A stretch of DNA of 64,000 nucleotides from positions 1 through 64,000 of the IMG/VR virus record IMGVR_UViG_3300025128_000015; one strand, given 5' to 3'. The first letter of the stretch is position 1. The number at the start of each line of letters is the position of its first letter. Source of the DNA: a virus. The notes beneath the pieces were generated by a model. It did not search any database, was not told the DNA's origin, and saw only the letters and a list, made by a program, of their open reading frames with translations. Positions 47,835 through 63,318 of this stretch are shown piece by piece. The position numbers and the translations under genes were made by a program.

Positions 47835-50441
47835 ATGGATGAAGAACTGAAAAGTTTATTAAGGGATTTGATTTCTAAAATGAATCAAAACCAGAATAAC
47901 CAAGGCGGACCCGCGCCCCAAGGCACTCCCATGGGTCCTAGTCCTGTACAGGATTATCAAAGCCGAGCACAAGCTGTTCAACAAGAAGCTGCAACTCTAA
48001 CTCAAATCGAACAAATGAATATACGACGTCGCTCCGCCGAAGACGCAATCACTCGCAATCTAGAGACACAAAAAGCTGCAGCAAAAAACATTGAGAGCAC
48101 AGTAGCGCGGATTGTAAAAGAAAGAAGGCTTGAAGCAGATGCAGCAAGATCCTCTTACAGTGAACAAGAAAAAATTGTTAACGCTCTCCAGAGAGACCTA
48201 GAATTAACTCGTCAAAGCGGAGAATTTACTCAAGGAGAAATACGATACAAGGAACGACAATTAGTATTAGGCAAAGAGGTTCTTCGCGACTTGCAACAGA
48301 AAGTGCAACTAACACAGGCTGCAGCCCAAGAAGCACAGCGAGAAGCTGCCCTTGTAGCTCAAGTTCGCGATAGAACGCAGTCTTTGGTATCAACGTTGAC
48401 ACAGGGTGTCTTAACGGCTAACGCAGCTAGCAAAACTGGCATGTTTGGTGCCTTATTCGGTTCCGGGTCAGGAGCAGGGTTCTTCGAAAAGTTAAAAACA
48501 GGTGGTCAAGCAATTGGACAGATCATTTCTCCTTTAAACGCTTCTTTGAGCGTTGTGGGTTATTTGACAGATGCGTTCAAGAAGCTTTTCTTTGCAACAG
48601 ATCAATCTGCAGCCCAATTTAGACGAGCAACTGGCGCAGGGCAAGAATATACAAAAGTTCTAACTCAAACAATTCAGAGAAACACCAAATTTGCTGTTAT
48701 GTCTGACGAAGCTGGAAAAGCGATGACCACACTTTTCAATCAAGTCCGCTTGTTCTCAGGAATGACCGACACAGCACAAAAATCTGTTTTAGATTTAACA
48801 GTTCGCATGAATCGCTTAGGTGTTGCAGAACAACAAACTGCTCAAATGACAGATATGCTCACGAAAGCCATGGGAATGAACATAAATCAGGCCATCGGCG
48901 CCATTGATAAATTGGCTGTATACGCTCGTCAGATTAAAATAAGCGAAGGCGAGGCTACTCAAGCATTTATGCAGTTTTCTGGTGTTCTTGCTGCTCACGG
49001 ACCAAACATGATGAATGTTTTTAAAGGTTTATTGCAAACCGTTAAGAACACTGGTATTGAGATGAGCAGCTTGATGCAGATTGCTAGTCGGTTTGACACA
49101 TTTGATCAAGCTGCAGCTTCAGTCGGTACTTTGAATGCTCTATTGGGTGGTAATTACTTAAATAGCATTAGAATGGTTAATGCTACGGAACAAGAAAGAC
49201 TGAGCTTGGTCGCACAATCGATCCGAGCGTCTGGAGCCAATCTAGATGCAATGGGAAGGTTTCAACAAAAAGCCATTGCACAGGCTATTGGAGCAAAAGA
49301 TGCAGCCGAAGCTATGAGACTTCTCAGAGGCGAACTTGGCATGCTAACTCCAGCAGAATTAGAAGCTGCTCGCGCTGCCGAACTTAACAAACAAAAAGCA
49401 CAAGAAAACATGGATATCCAAATGAAATTAAGAACGATATTCATGTCACTTGTACACTCACTAATGCCTTTAATCGAGAAGCTTCATGAAAATAGAGACG
49501 CAATTGTTAGATTGGTTGACAGAGTAGCCAAGTTTATGCAAGAAAATGGAAAATTGATTGCACAGTTTGCCGTATTATATCCTATCTTGCGAACAGCCGC
49601 CACTGCTATCGGAGGAGTTACTACAGCTTTTAGGGTCATGGGTGCTGCCTCGGGAGCCGCCCGATTGGGTATAGTAGGACTGGCCGGCGGATTTACTTAT
49701 CTAGCAATGCAGTTATTCAAACCACTCTTTTCGCCACCTCTTTATTTAGGAATGAGGGATTTTGGAGATTCGATTAAAAGGACTGGTTCAGCTGCCAATT
49801 CTGCGGCACCCAATTTTCGTAATTTAGGACAATCAACCGGAGAGCTAGCTAAAAACACTTCAGTTGCTTCACAAACCACTGCACAACTTGGAAGTGCAAT
49901 AGGTCTTATAGGCAAAAATTCTTCTGCAGCCGCCACCGGTATAAGAAACATCGCCACTGCAGGAATCACAGCTAGCAGGGGCATGAGTGATGCAGCCAAT
50001 AGCACAGCACAGCTAGCTTTTGGAGTTCAATCGATACAGAAAAACGTTGACAATTTAAATACTGCCAAACTAGCTGATTTTGGTGAAAAGATAAAACGTG
50101 TCAACGAAAACATGAACTTAAGCGCGACAGAAAATGAAAACGTCGAGAGAACAATAACTAATATTAATAGAGTTGCTATTGTTGGACAACAAGCAACTGA
50201 AGCTGCTTCTGCTGCTGGTGTAGAACGCCTTGCTGCAGCCGCACACAAGTTTAGTCTAACACAGGTCAATCAGTCAACTCAGGTCGCCGCAGCAGCCTCT
50301 GGGGGTCAAGGTTCGAGCGTGCACGTTGTCGAAGCACCTAGATCTGTACAGATCGACCTTGATGGAGTGTTGGTTGGTGAAGCGGCCTTAAACTTTGTAA
50401 ATAGAGAAAGAGACTCACAGACTTTGGTCGGTAGAGCATAG
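47835..50441 (+). CDS. Tail tape measure protein
   Basis: 868 residues, mostly helical. It has a Gln/Ala-rich coiled coil (residues about 30-190), a Gly-rich turn, a long Ala/Met/Gln helical region with TMP-like patterns (AGKAMTTLFNQVRLFSGMTD; AEQQTAQMTDMLTKAMGMNI), hydrophobic helices near residues 580-640 (LIAQFAVLYPILRTAATAIG; LGIVGLAGGFTYLAMQLF), and an Ala/Ser/Asn-rich end with a final beta segment PRSVQIDLDGVLVGEAAL. Tape measure proteins set tail length and thread through the tube; T4's counterpart is gp29. The assignment rests on length, composition and place after tube and chaperone genes. Confidence 0.8.
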   Translation: MDEELKSLLRDLISKMNQNQNNQGGPAPQGTPMGPSPVQDYQSRAQAVQQEAATLTQIEQMNIRRRSAEDAITRNLETQKAAAKNIESTVARIVKERRLEADAARSSYSEQEKIVNALQRDLELTRQSGEFTQGEIRYKERQLVLGKEVLRDLQQKVQLTQAAAQEAQREAALVAQVRDRTQSLVSTLTQGVLTANAASKTGMFGALFGSGSGAGFFEKLKTGGQAIGQIISPLNASLSVVGYLTDAFKKLFFATDQSAAQFRRATGAGQEYTKVLTQTIQRNTKFAVMSDEAGKAMTTLFNQVRLFSGMTDTAQKSVLDLTVRMNRLGVAEQQTAQMTDMLTKAMGMNINQAIGAIDKLAVYARQIKISEGEATQAFMQFSGVLAAHGPNMMNVFKGLLQTVKNTGIEMSSLMQIASRFDTFDQAAASVGTLNALLGGNYLNSIRMVNATEQERLSLVAQSIRASGANLDAMGRFQQKAIAQAIGAKDAAEAMRLLRGELGMLTPAELEAARAAELNKQKAQENMDIQMKLRTIFMSLVHSLMPLIEKLHENRDAIVRLVDRVAKFMQENGKLIAQFAVLYPILRTAATAIGGVTTAFRVMGAASGAARLGIVGLAGGFTYLAMQLFKPLFSPPLYLGMRDFGDSIKRTGSAANSAAPNFRNLGQSTGELAKNTSVASQTTAQLGSAIGLIGKNSSAAATGIRNIATAGITASRGMSDAANSTAQLAFGVQSIQKNVDNLNTAKLADFGEKIKRVNENMNLSATENENVERTITNINRVAIVGQQATEAASAAGVERLAAAAHKFSLTQVNQSTQVAAAASGGQGSSVHVVEAPRSVQIDLDGVLVGEAALNFVNRERDSQTLVGRA

Positions 50442-50452
50442 GAGGATAATAG

Positions 50453-51220
50453 ATGTCAGTTTGGAGTAGTACAGATGCGAGTAACCAAAAAGAGTTTACC
50501 GATATTGAATTTACATATGCCTCTATAGGGACTAAAAACAAGAACTTTTATAAAGTTCGCTTTAGTGCTTTTGTTACAGCTTTTTCTGATAACTTTTCAC
50601 AACAATGGTCGTCTACTGCCGTATATGGTAAGCCTGATGCAATCGAGACTTATCAAGGTACACGACGTTCGATCGATTTGGCATGGGATGTTCCCTCGAA
50701 CGGGCCAAAAGAAGGCTACAACAATATGATCAAGCTCGAAACACTTCTTAAGATGCTGTATCCAATGTATGATATACAATCAAAAAAATCCACTTCCAAC
50801 GTTGCAACGATAAATAAGCCACCTTTGTTGAGATTAAAGTTTGCAAACTTGATTCACAACAATTTAAACGGAAGAGGACTTTTAGGACATGTCAACGGCT
50901 TTAGTTTTAATCCTGCCATGGACCAAGGCATGTACAACACAAAAGAGCCAAGGCAAAGAGCAATTGGAATTCCAGATGTCGGCTTGATCCCAAAAGTCTA
51001 CAGCATGCGCTGCACTTTTACCGTACTTCACGAACAAGATTTAGGATTCAGTGCATCGAGAAATAGATTCTTTAACAATAGCTTTCCATATGGCTTTACT
51101 AAAGGTGTTGATGATATCACGGCCGCAAATAAAGGCACAGCAGTGTCTAAGCCCGAAACCGGAGCAACTGTCGACAAAAGCGCTGAGGCCGCAGTAACAA
51201 AAGCCAACAACGGGAGTTAA
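50453..51220 (+). CDS. Baseplate or tube-initiator protein
   Basis: 255 residues with SD AGGAGG. FSDNFSQQWSSTAVYGKPDA then IETYQGTRRSIDLAWDVPS is a pattern I associate with baseplate hub or tube-end proteins that resemble tube proteins (gp48/gp54 role in T4), but I cannot choose between these. The last 45 residues are Ala/Lys/Thr-rich and flexible. It lies between the tape measure and a LysM-type baseplate gene. Confidence 0.55.
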   Translation: MSVWSSTDASNQKEFTDIEFTYASIGTKNKNFYKVRFSAFVTAFSDNFSQQWSSTAVYGKPDAIETYQGTRRSIDLAWDVPSNGPKEGYNNMIKLETLLKMLYPMYDIQSKKSTSNVATINKPPLLRLKFANLIHNNLNGRGLLGHVNGFSFNPAMDQGMYNTKEPRQRAIGIPDVGLIPKVYSMRCTFTVLHEQDLGFSASRNRFFNNSFPYGFTKGVDDITAANKGTAVSKPETGATVDKSAEAAVTKANNGS

Positions 51221-51222
51221 AA

Positions 51223-51567
51223 ATGTCATTTATCAAAAGAGATCTCAACAGAAGCATAATTGTCAACGATAAAAGGTTTTATAAGTCTTTTTTTATAAAA
51301 AGAGATATAAATGGTGTTGAACAATATGACACACCTGTTTTATACTATCCTGAACAAGAGGAGATAAATGATTTTGAAATCGAACGTGTTGTATGGAAAG
51401 TTGGCGATAGATTCTCAAAATTGGCTCACGAGCACTATGGAAATGCAAAAATGTGGTGGGTCATCGCCTGGTATAACAAAAAACCAACAGACTCAGACGT
51501 TGAATATGGAGAGGTTATTGAAGTCCCTTTTCCTCTTCGCGACGTTCTCTCCGCTTTCGGCTACTAA
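51223..51567 (+). CDS. LysM-type baseplate protein (gp53-like)
   Basis: 114 residues. Residues about 55-110 contain VWKVGDRFSKLAHEHYGNAK MWWVIAWYNKKPTD and GEVIEVPFP, the LysM-like pattern found in small baseplate proteins of contractile phages and in the T4 wedge protein gp53 (YxLAxxxYGxxxxWWVI). It probably locks hub and wedge parts together. Spacing to both neighbours is tight. Confidence 0.8.
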   Translation: MSFIKRDLNRSIIVNDKRFYKSFFIKRDINGVEQYDTPVLYYPEQEEINDFEIERVVWKVGDRFSKLAHEHYGNAKMWWVIAWYNKKPTDSDVEYGEVIEVPFPLRDVLSAFGY

Positions 51568-51583
51568 AAAGATGATATAGATT

Positions 51584-54500
51584 ATGTCGAGTTTAAATTT
51601 TACAAACATTATTGATAAGATCAAGTCTGACCCAGTAGTCGGAGATTGCGCCACAAAATTGAGCGCACAGCAGCTTTTAGAGGCAGAAAACGGCGCCCAC
51701 CTTGAAACATTGGCAGCGATTAGTTCGAAAATGGGTCATTATTTTCGCCTATTTAAAGTTTTTAAAAGGGGAAGATCTGCAATCTTGAAAAAAATAAAAG
51801 CCGATGAAGAAATCACACTTGAGGGGCTCGTAGGATTAGGTTTTCGTGCAGGCGGGGAATTTAATGCAAAGCATTTCAAAGATGGCAAATATGAGCAGGT
51901 AACAAGTCAAGAACTGCTTAAAAGCTTTGGTGAAGATATAAATGACAGAGCAGACTTGGCAAAGAATGTTTCTTTTGGCGAGATTATCGAGAAGCTTAAT
52001 GACTATGCCTATTTGGGAGCCAGAATCCTTGGGGCTCATCAAAATCTCCAACAAAGGGTCGAGCCCGGAGGCACTGATTTGAGAAAATCCGCCTCTATTA
52101 TTGGCATGCCCACCCTCTATAGAGGCCCAGCTTCTAGGCCGACGGATGAAGATAAAAAAGTCTTAAAAGGTATAAAAAAACTTATAAATGAGCGAAATAG
52201 CACCGTGGTGGGACAACTAGCAGTTGATAATAATAGCGAAACAAAAATAAGACAGGACAAATTTAAATTTGCTTTGTTCAAAAGTATACAAGATTTATTG
52301 GAGTCCAATATCGGTAAAATGTTTCTTTTCTATACAAATCCAAATCAGACTGCTCCACTTTCGGCAGGAACAAGCCTATTTGAAAGCATACACGCCCCTC
52401 TTTATTTATCTCCCTCTAGAGGAAAAGTAACATCGGAAGATGTTTCAGCAAAAACAAAAGCTTTTATCAAAGAAATACTTAACGTAAAATTAGTTGTATC
52501 TGATAAGAAGGTAGAAAAAACTTATAAAGAATTATTTCAAGAAAGATTTCTCGTAAGATGTAGAGCTTTCATATCCGGAGATGTTGAGACCACTGAAGAT
52601 AAGTTTCCTCAAATTAATAGTGAACTTGAACTTAAGAGAAAGAGACTCCAGAATGTAAGATGCGTCCTGCCCTTGTTTGAAGATTTATATTCTTCAAGTA
52701 ACATTGCGACTTTTACTGACAGCGGAATGACAGGTGTTTATTCAAAGAACTATAAACACACACTAAACTCATTAGGACTCAAATCAGCTAGTTCTAAGAA
52801 AAAGTTTTTCACTAGCCAACATCATCCATTGATTTTTGCCTATACGAAAGATTCTCATTTTTTTGTTAATAAATTGTTTAATAAAGGTGATTCAAGATCA
52901 ACTTTGAAGTCGTTTTTAGAAGCTACAAATACTGATATTTCTTTTTTGCAGCCAAGAATTAGAGTCTATAAAGTTTTTGAAACACAAGAAGGCAAAGAGC
53001 AAGAAATACCGATAGAGTTTTCAAATAAAATTGAGCTTACCAAGTCTTCTGGTGTGTATGAGCGAGAAAATGCCGGCATCGAACGAGTTAGAATAAGAAG
53101 AACTGGACAAACACCCGCAACCTTTGATAAATTAATTGACGTCAATATTCGTCTTATTTTTGACAGCATTAATGCTTTTACAAAGTGTAGGACGACTTCT
53201 ATTGGCAAGAAAAAGTATTCATATGTTGATCTTTTGAGAAGACCAGTAGAACTAAAACAAACAGACAAGCAAATTGGTGATGTAAAAAGAGGAGCTTCAG
53301 AGTTAGAAAGATTTGGATCGAAAGAGTTAGAAAAGTTTATTGATAAGGCTCAAGAAATAAACATTGATAGTTATAGTCCAGACAAGTTTCAAATTAAACT
53401 AGAAGTGGGCTGGTCTTTTAATGATCAAGTATTCCAAAATCAGACTGCAGCGTCTAAGCGTGCACGCCTCGAAAAATTTATTTCAGAAACAAATTTGGTT
53501 ATGTATTTAACACTTCAGACACACGATTTTACGTTCAGAAACGATGGCACAGTTAGTTTAGATGTTAGGTACATGGGACGTGCAGGTGGCCAACTTATCG
53601 ACGCATTTCAGACAAATATTTTTCATACTCCCAACCTTGGACGACTTAGCAAAGCGGTCACTGTCGTTGATGATATATTGAGATTCTCTGCAGATAACAA
53701 AGATTTTTCTGTAAATCGGAATGTTATGCAGCAGAGAAAAAACCAATTAGTACATAAACTGAATACTGAAAGATCTAATTTAACTAGTCAAGTATGGAAG
53801 CGCTTGGTTGATGCATCTGTAGACCCAAATAATTCTAATGGAAGCACGCTTCTATCTTCAGCTTCAGGCAACGAAGCCCCTACTCATTTTTTAAGACTAA
53901 ATGTGCCTAAATCTTTTTTATTTTTTGACGCTGAATTTTTTACGAAGCTCGGGGTAAAAACTGATGAATCAACCACTGATAAACTCAAGGAGACTGCCAG
54001 CAGCCGCGTAACAAACACTGATCTCCTTCTTAGTTATTATAGAAATAAATTCCTAGAAGGGTCCGCCTCTGAGACCGATAATTTAAAGCTTGAAGTTGTA
54101 GCAAAAAAAGACAGCCCAACCAGCGCTGAAGGTACAAACAAAAACTTAAAAGGAGAAGATGCAATTAAGGATCCAGACCTTGCGCAAGATCCATTAAGGC
54201 CAGAAGATTTTGAAGAACAACTAGATGATGGCACCTTCGACTCACAAGTTTTTAAAAATACTTATTTAACAATTCCAGGTGGAGGCGATAAAAAAACAAG
54301 TATGTATTGTCTTAGGTATGGATCCGTTGTGCATTCCGCAATACAAAACATTTGGCAGTTTAACCCAGAAGGGCTAAAAGATATTGTCGTTATATTGGCT
54401 TCCTCACGATTTGAATCAATATCTGGGGGGGTTCGACATTTTAATTTTGCTGATATTCCAATTTTGTTTGAGGATTGGAAAAGGTTTATGATCGACAAAG

Positions 54501-55297
54501 TTGTTAATAAAAAGAAGGTCAATTATGCGCTCATTGATTTTATAAGAGATTCGATGATGGAGCTTTTAATCCCAGCAATGGGTGCAATTAATACAGGTTG
54601 CAAAGACGGCACGCAGATCGCTTCTCCTCTTAAAGCAGTAAAGCCTCGACTAACTTCTTTTAGTGCTCGTCGCCAACAAGGTTTAAGTCCCAATGATGGC
54701 AGTATATCTGTTAGTTTAGATAAAAAAGAGGCTGCTTTATTGGTTGGTAATAAACTGATAGGTAATGAAAATATTGTCGACGGTAAAGAACATTTGAAAC
54801 ATTTTTTGGTTATTTATGATGCCGGCTTTTCGACAGCAGCTAGCTTGGAAAAAGGGAGAAAGCCAAAGCTTTATGATACAAACCTTAAGCATAATATTCC
54901 TCATGTTTTTATCGGTGCCAACAGAGGAATTATGAGATCAGTCAGCTTTAGAAAAAGCACTGTTCCATTTTTGCAGGAATCTAAGGTGCTTGACAGGGGT
55001 GACACTGATTTCGGACTCTTGAGAGAAAAATACGATGTTACTCTAGAAACTGTAGGTAATCCTCACTTTCACCAAGGAATGAGATTCTATTTAGATCCAA
55101 CATTTACTGGTATGTCTAGCCACAACATCGACGTCGTTCAAGGAGTCTTAGGTTTAGGCGGATATTATGATATTGTAGATGTAACATCTGATATAAGCAA
55201 TTCCGGATTCAAAACCAGCATTGTTGGCTCTTGGCAGGCTTTTCATGAGGGCTATGATTCCAAAAAACGCCATGTTGACCCCTGTAAGGACAAATAA
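51584..55297 (+). CDS. Very large baseplate-region virion protein
   Basis: 1237 residues, starting 17 bases after the LysM gene with a weak SD. Mostly mixed alpha/beta with no catalytic motif that I recognise. A middle part (LEVGWSFNDQVFQNQTAASK ... LTLQTHDFTFRNDGTVSLDV RYMGRAGG, residues about 605-670) is a beta domain of the sort found in baseplate hub proteins. The region after residue 820 is a charged linker. Position after the gp53-like gene suggests a hub or wedge protein that replaces several T4 proteins, which is inference. Confidence 0.6.
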   Translation: MSSLNFTNIIDKIKSDPVVGDCATKLSAQQLLEAENGAHLETLAAISSKMGHYFRLFKVFKRGRSAILKKIKADEEITLEGLVGLGFRAGGEFNAKHFKDGKYEQVTSQELLKSFGEDINDRADLAKNVSFGEIIEKLNDYAYLGARILGAHQNLQQRVEPGGTDLRKSASIIGMPTLYRGPASRPTDEDKKVLKGIKKLINERNSTVVGQLAVDNNSETKIRQDKFKFALFKSIQDLLESNIGKMFLFYTNPNQTAPLSAGTSLFESIHAPLYLSPSRGKVTSEDVSAKTKAFIKEILNVKLVVSDKKVEKTYKELFQERFLVRCRAFISGDVETTEDKFPQINSELELKRKRLQNVRCVLPLFEDLYSSSNIATFTDSGMTGVYSKNYKHTLNSLGLKSASSKKKFFTSQHHPLIFAYTKDSHFFVNKLFNKGDSRSTLKSFLEATNTDISFLQPRIRVYKVFETQEGKEQEIPIEFSNKIELTKSSGVYERENAGIERVRIRRTGQTPATFDKLIDVNIRLIFDSINAFTKCRTTSIGKKKYSYVDLLRRPVELKQTDKQIGDVKRGASELERFGSKELEKFIDKAQEINIDSYSPDKFQIKLEVGWSFNDQVFQNQTAASKRARLEKFISETNLVMYLTLQTHDFTFRNDGTVSLDVRYMGRAGGQLIDAFQTNIFHTPNLGRLSKAVTVVDDILRFSADNKDFSVNRNVMQQRKNQLVHKLNTERSNLTSQVWKRLVDASVDPNNSNGSTLLSSASGNEAPTHFLRLNVPKSFLFFDAEFFTKLGVKTDESTTDKLKETASSRVTNTDLLLSYYRNKFLEGSASETDNLKLEVVAKKDSPTSAEGTNKNLKGEDAIKDPDLAQDPLRPEDFEEQLDDGTFDSQVFKNTYLTIPGGGDKKTSMYCLRYGSVVHSAIQNIWQFNPEGLKDIVVILASSRFESISGGVRHFNFADIPILFEDWKRFMIDKVVNKKKVNYALIDFIRDSMMELLIPAMGAINTGCKDGTQIASPLKAVKPRLTSFSARRQQGLSPNDGSISVSLDKKEAALLVGNKLIGNENIVDGKEHLKHFLVIYDAGFSTAASLEKGRKPKLYDTNLKHNIPHVFIGANRGIMRSVSFRKSTVPFLQESKVLDRGDTDFGLLREKYDVTLETVGNPHFHQGMRFYLDPTFTGMSSHNIDVVQGVLGLGGYYDIVDVTSDISNSGFKTSIVGSWQAFHEGYDSKKRHVDPCKDK

Positions 55298-55333
55298 ATG
55301 CCTTGTTTTTCAACAATAAACAATAATTAAAGT

Positions 55334-56809
55334 ATGGCCAATACGATAAAAATATTTAATGCGGCACAAGCAGAAGAGATTGAAAGATATATAGCTCCTG
55401 CCACTCAGAACGCCAGCCTGTATGTGCAAAATATAATTGATTTTTCTCAAATGAATCATTATGGGCTCGTTGATCCTTCTGGACAAACAATAATGCCAAA
55501 GATTTCAAACGACACTTTGTTATCTTTAGAAAACGCGCAGACATACGGAATAAGTTCCGTTGGCGGATCTGCTCAGGTTTTAGATTTCGTTGCCGATGCA
55601 TTCACAGATATGTCAAGTTATTTACAATCGGTTAGATTCCGCGCAGGAGAGTATTCACCAAAAACTTACACAAACAAAGCCGGCCAAACCACAGAAACAT
55701 TCATACAAAGTTTGGTTCCCGCAAGCGGATATGTAAATCCTGTTTCGCTGCACAAAGAGCATGTTAATATTATCTATGACCATTTTATAAGATCGTATCT
55801 AGAGCAAAACAATCGTCACAAGAGCATAAACAATCATCGTGATTTTATAAAAATGTTTGTGAATTATGTTTTTAGCGACTTGTATACAGATATTGCCAAT
55901 ATAAACCTTTCTTCTCACATAAGAAGATCTCTCATTCCGATTGAGTGTAACGGTATTACAATTAAGCTGTCATCAATAGACACTAATGATCAAGCTGAAA
56001 TAGATGAGATATACTATGGAGATCCTAATTTTAACTTATATGCCTCTACTGTGCACAAGTTCGGATTTTATATTGATGAAAAGAGACCTTTTATGCTTGT
56101 GGCCAATCTACGCTCTAAGAAAATGAATGAATATGCTCAAAATAGAGGATCCTTCTTGGTAAATTCGACACCAGATTCAGGATATACTTCTGCTGGTGGA
56201 TTAGGGCATGTGCATGAATACGAGATAGACGCAAATGGAAATGGTAAAACAGGATATACCTCTGCTGGTCCTTATCACGAACACGTTATTGAAAGTTATT
56301 GTGTTAAACACGCGCAAATCGGAGCATCTCACAAGCACGAATTGCCAAGACAGGACGTGTTCACTAAGTATTATGTCCGGGCTCAAGAAAATGAACTCGA
56401 TCGACTCAAATCACTTCTTTTTAGAATGTACGATAGCTATATTAAGCAGAGTCCACAAAATATAGTCAATACTTTTCCTAAAGGAGCCCTCGTAAAGAAG
56501 GCGAGAATAAGAAAACCAGTAACCGAGAAAGATTTTGCTTTATCCATGTCAAATCAAAAATGGATTCGTCTGTATTTTGACCTTAAGATCAATGAAGAGA
56601 GAGTTATCTTAAAAAGAAGCAAGTATTTAAATATTGTCCGAAAAGCTCAAGAAATGTTGAAAGTCGCCACTGTACAAGAAGCGGTCGAGTATATCAATAA
56701 AGAAATCTATAAAAGGGTTCAAACTCTTGTGCAGGGTCCAAATGTAAACAGTAGCTACCATAATCTCCCTGGTAGCAATACTTTAAAGAAACTGTCTGAG
56801 TATTTTTAA
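55334..56809 (+). CDS. Baseplate-region protein with three HxH motifs
   Basis: 491 residues, with no evident SD. The centre (residues about 285-345) has GLGHVHEYEIDANGNGKTGY, then GPYHEHVIESYC and GASHKHELPR. The three HxH elements with a nearby Cys look like metal-binding loops, as in the iron-binding HxH sites of T4 fibre and spike proteins. A short duplication SGYTSAGGLGH / TGYTSAGPYHEH is visible. The flanking parts are helical. It is the last virion-type gene before the replication block, probably a tail appendage or hub protein. Confidence 0.6.
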   Translation: MANTIKIFNAAQAEEIERYIAPATQNASLYVQNIIDFSQMNHYGLVDPSGQTIMPKISNDTLLSLENAQTYGISSVGGSAQVLDFVADAFTDMSSYLQSVRFRAGEYSPKTYTNKAGQTTETFIQSLVPASGYVNPVSLHKEHVNIIYDHFIRSYLEQNNRHKSINNHRDFIKMFVNYVFSDLYTDIANINLSSHIRRSLIPIECNGITIKLSSIDTNDQAEIDEIYYGDPNFNLYASTVHKFGFYIDEKRPFMLVANLRSKKMNEYAQNRGSFLVNSTPDSGYTSAGGLGHVHEYEIDANGNGKTGYTSAGPYHEHVIESYCVKHAQIGASHKHELPRQDVFTKYYVRAQENELDRLKSLLFRMYDSYIKQSPQNIVNTFPKGALVKKARIRKPVTEKDFALSMSNQKWIRLYFDLKINEERVILKRSKYLNIVRKAQEMLKVATVQEAVEYINKEIYKRVQTLVQGPNVNSSYHNLPGSNTLKKLSEYF

Positions 56810-56854: not shown

Positions 56855-58048
56855 TTGTATTTTCAGATTATTGATGATAAGACAGAATGCATTGGAATAT
56901 ATGCAAATGAAAAAATCTATTATGATGAAGTTCCATCATCGATCGCAGCAACCTGGAAATACGCGCCAATCCTCCGTGATCGTAATGATATAAAATACGC
57001 TAGCTTATATTGCGGAGATCACGACTTAACTCGTTCTTGCCCAGAACACTTGGAAAAGAGGCTAAGCAACATTTTAGATAGATTCCGAGCTTATCTGACA
57101 TCGTTCAAAGAAGCAAAGATATCTTTATATGATAACTGTTTTTATGATTTAGTTCCAGAGCGTTTTGTGTTAGAATATTGCGATGTTAAAAACGAGATTA
57201 CAAAACACATACTAGAAAACAACGACAAACCAAAAAACTACAATTTTCTCGTCTCACTCAGCAAAGTTTTGGAGGACATAAAATATTTGCCTTTAAATTT
57301 AGACTTTGCTGATTTTAACTTTGGATCAACAAGAGGTAGAATGTTCCACAAGAAGATCAAGCAAAAAGGACCAAACATTGTATATGATCTATTTGGTTCG
57401 AAGACTGGCCGCTTGACAACAAAGAAGAACAGCTTTCCAATACTGACTATGGACAAGAAATACAGAAGCATTATCAAACCAAAAAACGACTGTTTCTTAG
57501 AGCTTGATTTCAATTCAGCCGAGATCAGGACTTTTTTAGCCCTACAGGGACTTGAGCAGCCAAAACAAGATATCCATGCGTGGACAGGCAAAAATGTCTT
57601 TAAGGGGCAATTAACAAGGGATGAGGTGAAGAAAAAGTTCTTTGCATGGCTATATAATCCAGAAGCAAAAAATGATAAACTTGAAAGCATCTTCGACAAG
57701 AACAAGATTCTAGAGAAATATTGGAACGGATATAATGTCGAAACACCCTATAATAGAAAAATGGAAGCAGGAAAGAAGCACGCATTGAATTACTTAATTC
57801 AGAGTACAACCAGTGACTTGTTTTTACGACGAATGATCGACGTATGGCATCTTCTAAAAAATAGAACATCTCATGTGTCTTTCTGTATTCATGATTCTTT
57901 GGTGATAGACTTTTCTGTCGAAGATCGATCGCTCTTACAAGAAATTGTAGACAAGTTTTCAAATACAGAATTAGGATTCTTTAAGATCAACCTAAGTGCT
58001 GGCAAGAATTATGGTGAAATGAGGAAATTAGAATGGAAACAATCATAG
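56855..58048 (+). CDS. Minimal family A DNA polymerase
   Basis: An upstream TTG at 56840 has no SD, while TTG 56855 has AAGAGG six bases upstream, so I start there (397 residues). The polymerase motifs are present: motif A CFLELDFNSAEIRTFLA (about 216), a motif B-like stretch RDEVKKKFFAWLYNPEAKN, the NYLIQSTTSDLF helix (about 311, compare PIQGTAAD), and motif C FCIHDSLVI (about 345, compare VHDE). TGRLTT near residue 186 matches the family TGRLSS motif. There is no 3'-5' exonuclease signature and only a short N-terminal part; Pol I Klenow is about 600 residues. RM378 phage also splits Pol A functions between genes. Confidence 0.85.
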   Translation: MYFQIIDDKTECIGIYANEKIYYDEVPSSIAATWKYAPILRDRNDIKYASLYCGDHDLTRSCPEHLEKRLSNILDRFRAYLTSFKEAKISLYDNCFYDLVPERFVLEYCDVKNEITKHILENNDKPKNYNFLVSLSKVLEDIKYLPLNLDFADFNFGSTRGRMFHKKIKQKGPNIVYDLFGSKTGRLTTKKNSFPILTMDKKYRSIIKPKNDCFLELDFNSAEIRTFLALQGLEQPKQDIHAWTGKNVFKGQLTRDEVKKKFFAWLYNPEAKNDKLESIFDKNKILEKYWNGYNVETPYNRKMEAGKKHALNYLIQSTTSDLFLRRMIDVWHLLKNRTSHVSFCIHDSLVIDFSVEDRSLLQEIVDKFSNTELGFFKINLSAGKNYGEMRKLEWKQS

Positions 58049-58896
58049 GCTTAGGTTCTGCAGGGTGTAAAATAACAGAGAAGTTTGCTGAGTATCCGCA
58101 ATACGCTACATATAGAATTGATTCAGAGAAGCGACCTGGCCCAAAATTCAAACAACTCAAGAAATCTAGCTCACATGAAGAATACGAAAAGAACTGCCCT
58201 TCATTCAAGAGATTCTTTAAAGATGCGAAGCCACCGTATCTTTTTATTGTCTCAGGTGCAGGCGCGATATCTGGAGCCGCATTGAGAATCTTGGAACAAC
58301 TTAACTCTAAAGAAATATATGTCTTATATATAAGACCTGACGTATCTCTTCTTTCTGAAATGAAAAGAAAGCAAGAACGCGCTGGTTTTCACATATTACA
58401 ACAATTTGCGAGATCTGGGCTGTTGAAAAGAATCTTTCTTGTTAATAATTCCAATTTAGAGCAAATTATTCAAGACACTCCCGTGATAGGATATTACGAT
58501 AAATTAAATGAGTTGGTAGTTTCAGTAATTCATATGATTAACGTTTGCACTAATTCAGAACCAGTTTTAGAGACTTTCGATGATCCTGTTGAAGCTGCGA
58601 GGATATCAACTTTAGGAATTGTTGAGCTAGAAACTGGCCAAGAAACTTTATTTTTTGATTTAAAAATGCCTCGGGAAAAGGTATACTTCTATATGATTCA
58701 CGAAGACAAGTTGAAAAGCGACGGAGAGCTTCTGAAGAACATTACAGGACAAGTTCGTTCTCGTATGGAGGGCGGTAAAATACAAACATCTTTTGGTATA
58801 TATTCTACAGAATATCAGCAGAATTACGTTTATGTTTTAGCGCATACTTCTTTAATACAAAATGAACTTTTTTTCTTGTCTGACGAAGAATCGTGA
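58033..58896 (+). CDS. Tubulin/FtsZ-like GTPase fold protein (candidate)
   Basis: 287 residues, starting 16 bases inside the end of the polymerase gene. METIIGLGSAGCKITEKFAEY resembles the first strand, loop and helix of tubulins and FtsZ (IIxxGxxGCxI...F). FIVSGAGAISGAALRILEQL (about 72-90) lies where the tubulin signature GGGTGSG is expected, but it is degenerate (SGAGAISG). RIFLVNNSNLEQI (about 133-145) matches the FtsZ guanine-contact strand and Asn, and YYDKLNELVVSVIHMINV the following helix H7. TFDDP could correspond to the catalytic T7 loop. The overall length equals the tubulin core. GTP hydrolysis is uncertain because the signature is altered. Confidence 0.6.
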   Translation: METIIGLGSAGCKITEKFAEYPQYATYRIDSEKRPGPKFKQLKKSSSHEEYEKNCPSFKRFFKDAKPPYLFIVSGAGAISGAALRILEQLNSKEIYVLYIRPDVSLLSEMKRKQERAGFHILQQFARSGLLKRIFLVNNSNLEQIIQDTPVIGYYDKLNELVVSVIHMINVCTNSEPVLETFDDPVEAARISTLGIVELETGQETLFFDLKMPREKVYFYMIHEDKLKSDGELLKNITGQVRSRMEGGKIQTSFGIYSTEYQQNYVYVLAHTSLIQNELFFLSDEES

Positions 58897-58967: not shown

Positions 58968-59723
58968 ATGGCTATCAATATGGATAAAATGAAAGCAAGG
59001 CGAGAAGCCTTACAAAGCCGCGGCAGCGGTGGGAGCAACAAGGAAATGTTTTGGCGTCCACAAGACGGTGAGAGTACAATTCGAATTGTTCCAAGCGAAG
59101 ACGGTGATCCGTTTAAAGATTACTGGTTTCACTACAACGTAGGTAACAATCCTGGCTTTCTGAGTCCCAAGAAAAACTTTGGTGAGGAAGATCCTTTGGA
59201 TAATTTTGTCCGCTCCCTTTTCAAAGAAGGATCCGAGGACAGTATTAAAATGGCTAAGAGTTTAATGGCTCGTCAAAGGTTTTTTGCACCGGTTCTTGTT
59301 CGAGGAGAAGAAGAAAAAGGTGTAAGAGTCTGGGGATTTGGTAAAATGGCTTACCAAGAACTTTTGAATCTTGTTTTAAATCCGGATTATGGAGACATCA
59401 CAGATGTTGACGACGGTACTGATTTGGTAATTACTTATGGAAAGCCTCCAGGGGCACAATTTCCTCAAACCACAATCACACCACGTCGCAAGTCTTCACC
59501 GCTTACAAAGACAAAGAAGCAAACAAAAGATTATCTAGAGCAGGTACCTGATGTTACTACTCTTTTTGAGAAGAAATCACCTAACCAGGTACAAGAAATG
59601 CTAGACCAATTTTTGCTTGGAGAAGAAGACGCGGAAGAAGTGTCGACAGAGACTAAGAAGTACCAGAATAAATCTGATACTCCAACGTCTGTTGATCAAG
59701 CTTTTTCTGAGTTTGGACTCTAA
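58968..59723 (+). CDS. 32: Single-stranded DNA-binding protein (T4 gp32-like)
   Basis: 251 residues (T4 gp32 has 301), SD AAGGAG. The N-terminus is basic and helical (the cooperative B domain in T4); EMFWRPQDGESTIRIVPSED, FHYNVGNNPGFLSPKKNFGE, RQRFFAPVLVRGEEEKGVRV and WGFGKMAYQELLNLVLNPDY are typical gp32-family segments; the end is acidic (EEDAEEVSTE) with a final EFGL, as expected for the protein-interaction tail. The zinc-binding Cys residues of T4 gp32 are absent. It coats ssDNA for replication and for UvsX recombination. A terminator follows. Confidence 0.88.
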   Translation: MAINMDKMKARREALQSRGSGGSNKEMFWRPQDGESTIRIVPSEDGDPFKDYWFHYNVGNNPGFLSPKKNFGEEDPLDNFVRSLFKEGSEDSIKMAKSLMARQRFFAPVLVRGEEEKGVRVWGFGKMAYQELLNLVLNPDYGDITDVDDGTDLVITYGKPPGAQFPQTTITPRRKSSPLTKTKKQTKDYLEQVPDVTTLFEKKSPNQVQEMLDQFLLGEEDAEEVSTETKKYQNKSDTPTSVDQAFSEFGL

Positions 59724-62217: not shown

Positions 62218-63318
62218 ATGGCAAGGAAAGCTAAAAAATTAGGAAAACTTAGTCTGGACGATATGCGAAACCTTATTAATCGTAAGGCAGGATTAGAAGT
62301 CGCCCACGATCTAAGAGAAGAGAACCCAACTGAGGTAAAAGAGTGGATCTCCACTGGATCAACTTGGTTGGACAACATTGTTTGCAGAGGAAAAAAGGCC
62401 GGCATTCCAGTAGGTAAAATTACTGAGATTGCTGGTCTAGAAGGAGCGGGTAAATCGTGGATGGCTGCAGAGATTGCTGCCAATGCTCAAAAAATGGGTA
62501 TTGACGTTGTTTACTTCGATTCAGAGTCTGCTATCGATCCAAGTTTATTGTCTAGGTTAGGCATCGACTTGGAAAGATTTCTTTATGTGCAAGCATCAAG
62601 TGTTGAATTTGTTTTAGAGACGATCGAAGAACTATTAGGCTCTAACGATAGTCAAATGTTATTTATCTGGGACTCTCTGGCTCTTACGCCGGCCATAACA
62701 GATGTAGAAGGTGATTTCAACCCTCAGTCATCGATGGCTGTGAAGGCTCGAATCTTGGCGAAAGGGATGTCAAAACTTACTGTCCCTATCGCCAACACAC
62801 AGTCAACATTTTTGGTATTAAACCAGCTTAAAACAAATATCGCTTCAAATCCTGCGCAGAGAATGGAGATTATGACAACACCGTATGTCACTCCAGGTGG
62901 AAAAGCTATGCACTATGCATATTCACTGCGCATTTGGTTAACCGGCCGAAAAGCTAAGTCTTCGTTTATTATGAATGGAGACGACCGCGTAGGATACCAA
63001 GTACAAGTTAAACTAGAAAAATCACGCTTTGGAACATCAGGACGAAGGTGTCATTTTAAAATTATGTTTGCTGGTGAAGTTGGTATTCGTAATGAAGAGA
63101 GTTGGCTCGAAGCTTTAATAGGCTCAGAAAACCTAACTCAATCAGGTGCGTGGTACACACTACACTTTGAAGATGGGACATCACAAAAATTTCAATCAAA
63201 AAATTGGCTTGAAAAATTAAAAAGTAGTGAACAGTTCCGTGAAAGAGTGTTAGAGTTAATGCATGAAGAGATTGTTTTGAAATACGAAAGAAAGACAGAA
63301 CAATCTTCTTCTACATAA
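62218..63318 (+). CDS. uvsX: UvsX/RecA-like recombinase
   Basis: 366 residues (T4 UvsX has 391), SD GGAGGG. Walker A GLEGAGKSW (about 72-80), the FDSESAIDPS element with the catalytic Glu, Walker B MLFIWDSLAL (about 147-156), and TTPYVTPGGKAMHYAYSLRI followed by WLTG are characteristic of UvsX. It forms a presynaptic filament with the gp32-like SSB for strand exchange and recombination-dependent replication, together with the SbcCD fusion at 16387. A terminator follows. Confidence 0.95.
   Translation: MARKAKKLGKLSLDDMRNLINRKAGLEVAHDLREENPTEVKEWISTGSTWLDNIVCRGKKAGIPVGKITEIAGLEGAGKSWMAAEIAANAQKMGIDVVYFDSESAIDPSLLSRLGIDLERFLYVQASSVEFVLETIEELLGSNDSQMLFIWDSLALTPAITDVEGDFNPQSSMAVKARILAKGMSKLTVPIANTQSTFLVLNQLKTNIASNPAQRMEIMTTPYVTPGGKAMHYAYSLRIWLTGRKAKSSFIMNGDDRVGYQVQVKLEKSRFGTSGRRCHFKIMFAGEVGIRNEESWLEALIGSENLTQSGAWYTLHFEDGTSQKFQSKNWLEKLKSSEQFRERVLELMHEEIVLKYERKTEQSSST

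Follow-up and report, generated by a model that had tools for sequence, protein, structure and literature searches.

A divergent tubulin/FtsZ-superfamily protein encoded in the replication module of uncultured T4-related phages

In FtsZ, the division GTPase of bacteria and archaea, loops T1-T4 touch the phosphates of the nucleotide, T5 the ribose and T6 the guanine, and loop T7 of the next subunit supplies two catalytic aspartates; the T7 mutations N208L, D210N and D213N suppress assembly (PMC8936486). Two other members of the superfamily, PhuZ of the nucleus-forming jumbo phages and TubZ, a segregation tubulin of plasmids and phages, form dynamic filaments (PMC10299810; PMC13282480), and PhuZ homologues were also reported in huge phages by Al-Shayeb et al. 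(PMC7162821). In the literature searched, subscription papers and preprints lying outside its scope, we found no account of a gene for a tubulin fold in T4-related phages. Here we describe such a gene in a 64,000-nucleotide stretch of viral DNA, hereafter the window, which makes up positions 1 to 64,000 of the 189,594-base record IMGVR_UViG_3300025128_000015.

A sequence-only reading of the window had placed a tubulin/FtsZ-like gene at 58033-58896, and the observation proved to be real, as the frame starts with ATG, encodes 287 aa and has exactly these ends. The opposite strand carries stops throughout. Comparison with the 92%-identical gene of locus L001 gave a dN of 0.037 and a dS of 0.66, indicating that the frame encodes a protein under strong purifying selection. 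The adjacency to a DNA polymerase and the SSB downstream, both part of the same reading, were confirmed; the polymerase ORF and the tubulin-like gene overlap by 16 nt (58033-58048), and the SSB is gp32-like (Table 1). The T4-like context was borne out as well by PHROG matches of the gp23, gp20, gp17, gp32 and UvsX-like types, and a DnaB-type helicase gene lies just past the window end. Upstream of the polymerase, positions 47835-56809 hold large ORFs of 868, 1237 and 491 aa with no PHROG match, the latter two recurring at the corresponding place in related loci, mostly with 17-35% identity.

Table 1. Features of the tubulin-like gene and its surroundings in the window
Feature	Position	Strand	Basis or remark
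Family-A DNA polymerase, 402 aa	56840..58048	+	Pfam DNA_pol_A 1.7e-12; 16-nt overlap with tubulin-like gene
Shine-Dalgarno-like AGGA	58022..58025	+	Sequence; 7 nt ahead of ATG, within polymerase gene
Tubulin/FtsZ-fold protein gene	58033..58896	+	ORF (ATG 58033, stop ending 58896, 287 aa), AF2 model, Foldseek, family
T1 loop and start of H1, residues 6-14 (GLGSAGCKI)	58048..58074	+	Aligns with FtsZ GVGGGGGNA; G6, G8, G11 100% conserved
D30, T2-loop acid position (IDSE)	58120..58122	+	91% conserved; aligns with PhuZ IDTS, FtsZ VNTD
Degenerate T4 loop, residues 75-81 (GAGAISG)	58255..58275	+	Aligned to FtsZ GGGTGTG region
N139, T6 guanine-side Asn position	58447..58449	+	Aligned to FtsZ IPND Asn; 92% conserved
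Central helix H7, residues 154-173, with Y155, N159	58492..58551	+	Helix in model; alignment to FtsZ
T7/H8 position, residues 177-189	58561..58599	+	FtsZ catalytic motif absent; model shows no helix H8
Conserved RNA hairpin, 8-bp stem, 8-nt loop	58924..58947	+	Between tubulin-like gene and SSB gene
gp32-like single-strand DNA-binding protein	58968..59723	+	PHROG 1192 6.3e-28; Pfam gp32 3.1e-12
UvsX/RecA-like recombinase, same module	62218..63318	+	PHROG 97 2.4e-57

Searches with the single 287-aa protein against Pfam (above cut-off), PHROG and the PDB sequences returned nothing useful, including no match of the window protein itself to PF00091 above the gathering score. Likewise, tblastn with three different members against the 50,697 phage records of INPHARED detected zero homologues, and PDB searches with alignment profiles of the family yielded chance matches only. 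The family is absent from Pfam and PHROGs, though weak Pfam Tubulin matches occurred in 7 members (best E 0.0055). Relatives were found in uncultured viral contigs, 6 by a single-sequence search and 179 by an alignment search. We retrieved 80 of the latter; with a further set obtained via the polymerase, the loci carrying the tubulin-like gene amounted to 160. Open frames of the family span 272-317 aa, and the conservation counts below refer to 102 distinct members less than 90% identical to each other. One locus (L083) lies in the chromosome of a MAG labelled 'candidate division WOR-3 bacterium' (CP070664.1), where polymerase, tubulin-like gene, SSB and UvsX sit together between runs of N. 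A bacterial origin was therefore rejected, and the block probably represents a piece of phage DNA that scaffolding had joined to the MAG.

The neighborhood of the gene was then compared across 149 loci with a family-A polymerase, which comprised the 80 polymerases nearest the window's, out of at least 586 relatives, plus the loci found via the tubulin-like gene, and hence are not a random sample. The tubulin-like gene was present on the same strand at all 149, and the two ORFs overlapped in 99. An SSB gene followed within 1.5 kb at 115 of the 124 loci that had room for it. Because the best 80 of at least 586 polymerases were used, this linkage rule has been established for this clade only. In this clade of uncultured T4-related phages, the tubulin-like gene is part of the replication module. 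By capsid, polymerase and SSB, the nearest isolates are Flavobacterium phage immuto and Microcystis phage Mel-JY01. Neither they nor the uncultured huge phage LR756508 showed such a gene in the stretch read around polymerase and SSB, both of which are present in all three. These three phages share a small protein (..VHRKKESNTLYTIN..; L202:1346-1801, L203:3675-4064, L204:5764-6171), which occupies the polymerase-SSB region where the window's clade has the tubulin-like gene.

To establish the fold, the protein was modeled by AlphaFold2. A model from a 7-sequence alignment was poor (pLDDT 56), yet FtsZ already came first in its fold ranking, and a model from 51 sequences reached a pLDDT of 90.8 and a pTM of 0.90. 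The latter displays a Rossmann GTPase domain, the central helix H7 and a second domain. When it was compared with the PDB by Foldseek, FtsZ, TubZ or tubulin took all 50 top places over the whole chain, with a best E of 1.3e-12 (range about 1e-12 to 1e-10) and query TM scores of 0.62-0.74. The tubulin Rossmann fold with its second domain, on which the earlier assignment hinged, was thereby recovered. Profile-profile alignment, which is independent of structure, pointed the same way. The hhalign score to FtsZ was 33.8 over residues 3-167, against a column-shuffled maximum of 22.4 (n=30), and that to PhuZ was 44.1, covering residues 4-100 only, against a shuffled maximum of 18.0; a global hhalign against FtsZ was uninformative. 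The profile comparison placed T1, T6 and H7 onto their FtsZ counterparts, including the Phe and Asn positions at the guanine. Taken together, the Foldseek matches and the profile alignment support superfamily membership well, and by fold and homology the window protein is almost certainly a tubulin/FtsZ superfamily member. It is a highly divergent one, and its chain stops about 15 residues past the last strand, lacking the C-terminal linker and tail peptide of FtsZ.

We next examined the motifs around the nucleotide. The N-terminal stretch GLGSAGCKITEKF, taken earlier as tubulin-like, corresponds to residues 6-18 and comprises the Gly-rich T1 loop after S1, with the family form GLGxAGC and glycines G6, G8 and G11 invariant. 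SGAGAISGA (residues 74-82), read as the T4 signature GGGTGSG in position and spacing, does align with GGGTGTG, but the spacing is two residues shorter upstream, and other residues stand in for the Thr and the fifth Gly, the family consensus being G-[SAG]-G-x-[IV]-S-G. LVNNSNLEQI (residues 136-145), which together with the helix after it had been read as the N-contact strand and H7, is T6 and the start of H6, whereas H7 proper lies further on, at residues 154-173. In FtsZ the Asn of IPND and the Phe and Asn of DAFGAAND contact the guanine, as do Tyr224 and Asn228 in tubulin. In the alignment, Y155 falls on the Phe and N159 on the Asn of DAFGAAND in E. coli FtsZ; N139 is kept in 94 of the 102 members, N159 in 96 and Tyr/Phe155 in 84. 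In contrast, the canonical T4 motif GGGTG[ST]G was found in 0/102 members versus 27/30 FtsZ comparators, and the FtsZ T7 motif N.D..D in 0/102 versus 28/30. Residues 177-189, at the T7 position, vary across the family, and an acid occurs somewhere at 180-189 in 89/102 members, so that a shifted T7 acid may remain. Judging from these motifs, the family has likely lost GTPase catalysis; the weakened GTPase activity suggested by the sequence-only reading is supported only by inference from the missing T4 and T7 motifs.

The guanine-side residues were lost in concert. Both N139 and N159 are missing in 6 members, N139 alone in 2 and N159 alone in none, and this association (Fisher 2e-8) ranks first of the 190 column pairs with equal conservation. 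All 6 double-loss members carry Asp or Glu at T4 position 77 and a changed A10. These pocket-less members (L132, L135, L136, L161, L189 and L198) have the rest of the family signature intact. A quick tree built without the pocket columns required three changes at position 159, of which well-supported branches dictate two; this corresponds to two to three lineages. A second, intact copy was absent from the fetched loci of these lineages, the gene being single-copy at every fetched locus. Meanwhile, Y24, Q123, R127, H167, M168 and Y261 are retained in the pocket-less members. The joint loss, together with the persistence of other invariant residues, provides comparative support for the view that, in most lineages, the predicted pocket functions as one unit; the same comparison supports the view that the obligatory function of the protein would lie outside it. 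As Q23/Y24, R127/S128 and the end of H7 follow helices, they are placed on the side away from the nucleotide; from the topology and the secondary structure of the model, Q23, Y24, Q123, R127, S128, H167 and M168 are predicted to form a conserved face there.

A strongly covarying RNA hairpin precedes the SSB gene throughout the clade and, at most related loci, stands on the 3′ side of the tubulin-like gene; its loop has the pattern [AG]A.A[TG]T... Such a hairpin was detected in 101 of 109 distinct SSB-upstream regions versus about 6 in shuffles, a count independent of the loop pattern. Among 46 distinct copies, 99.5% of the cells were paired and 160 cells had changed on both sides, compared with only 31-49% paired in slid controls; the 99.5% is inflated, since the copies had been picked by the loop pattern and at least 6/8 pairs. 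The hairpin occurs once in the whole 189,594-base record and matched no Rfam family at any useful score. Given that gp32 of T4 and RB69 represses its own mRNA via a structured leader (PMC535899), the hairpin is likely, by analogy, a translational operator, to which the SSB, the polymerase or the tubulin-like protein could bind.

What might this protein do? Because its coupling to the polymerase is constant, the T4 and T7 motifs are missing and pocket-less lineages exist, in which the pocket was lost as a unit while a second invariant set stayed, we prefer to see in it a structural, nucleotide-optional replisome partner rather than a dynamic filament of the PhuZ kind. That it acts as such a partner, nucleotide-gated in most lineages and nucleotide-free in some, has in our estimate an even chance of being correct. 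On this proposal, the protein would be synthesized by translation coupled with that of the polymerase, and in most members T1, T6 and H7 would hold a guanine nucleotide. These members would be unable to form the normal composite active site of FtsZ and so would not drive a fast hydrolysing filament. Instead, the protein may support the phage replisome as a structural partner or as a short scaffold, contacting its partner probably via the conserved face opposite the nucleotide. It should be cautioned that linkage between genes alone is no proof of a physical link to the polymerase. We offer more tentatively the wider claim that a tubulin-superfamily protein became an obligatory, nucleotide-optional replisome subunit tied to one family-A polymerase lineage, lacking the T7 and T4 motifs everywhere and losing the pocket in two to three lineages with the other conserved face kept.

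A cytomotive filament of the PhuZ/TubZ type, which would polymerize with GTP and position, segregate or center replicating phage DNA or capsids, is a possible but not a probable account. It has the fold in its favor, as well as PhuZ as the nearest profile match (44.1), guanine-side positions kept in about 92% of members, and the functional precedents of PhuZ and TubZ noted above. Against a filament of this type speak the 102/102 members that have neither the T4 signature nor the T7 motif of FtsZ, the loss of the pocket as a unit in some lineages and a chain that ends about 15 residues after its last strand, without the C-terminal helix and acidic tail of PhuZ. Furthermore, PhuZ is accessory, being missing in one third of Chimalliviridae (PMC10299810), whereas the tubulin-like gene was present at every polymerase locus examined.

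The degenerate T7 side on an FtsZ fold could also fit a decoy or capper of host FtsZ, a one-sided mimic that blocks host division during infection, and phage proteins that bind FtsZ exist, Gp0.4 of phage T7 forming a complex with it (PMC13423816). Such a role is improbable, as identity to FtsZ structures is only 10-16%, the gene is a core member of the replication module instead of an accessory early gene, and the T6/H7 residue positions are retained in most lineages. Still less credible is some other Rossmann nucleotide-binding protein of the TrkA-N or CoA-binding type, not tubulin. Weak Pfam matches to TrkA_N (best 0.00068, 13 members) and CoA_binding_2 (0.017) hinted at it, but the latter is under its curated cut-off, the guanine-side residues align with FtsZ, and the tubulin superfamily filled the Foldseek top 50 with matches that span the whole chain, H7 and second domain included; the fold search led us to reject a TrkA_N or CoA_binding identity. 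Two questions become testable here, as a tubulin-fold gene sits between polymerase and SSB and natural lineages exist without the nucleotide site: can a tubulin function without its GTPase, and have the replication machines of phages taken up cytoskeletal folds?

Compared with the known systems, the window family shares with FtsZ the two-domain fold with H7 (TM 0.65-0.74 normalized to the query) and aligned T1, T6 and H7 positions, but differs in its 10-16% identity, in lacking GGGTG[ST]G, N.D..D and a C-terminal linker or tail, in its shorter frames (272-317 aa versus 383 aa in E. coli) and in being a phage replication-module gene. TubZ resembles it in fold (Foldseek ranks 27 and 33), although the TubZ chain is longer (TM 0.65) and the window family lacks the T4 and T7 motifs. 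The best viral structure match was A0A6J5RW92 of an uncultured Caudovirales phage in BFVD, annotated 'FtsZ Cell division GTPase' (TMq 0.78, E 3.2e-12), which has 452 aa versus 287 and 16% identity. As BFVD holds, beside this one, further phage proteins that carry an FtsZ or tubulin annotation and are not PhuZ, the window family is not the sole non-PhuZ phage tubulin; the idea of a new branch stands at the sequence level, where no Pfam or PHROG family and no INPHARED tblastn match exists. PhuZ is likewise phage-encoded and is the closest profile, in the N-terminal region (GGAGINI, IDTS), but it keeps the T4 signature (PMC10299810; GGGSGS) and a C-terminal tail, both of which the window family lacks. 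The window phage is T4-related with a record of about 190 kb, in which a chimallin query (phiKZ PHIKZ054) found no match in a search run without a positive control on a possibly incomplete record. Whereas PhuZ, the well-studied phage tubulin, is a dynamic accessory filament, the window family is apparently obligatory and occurs in smaller, T4-related phages. Its tubulin fold without the usual catalytic motifs, encoded right beside the DNA polymerase, suggests that a cytoskeletal protein was converted into a core component of the replication machinery of a phage.
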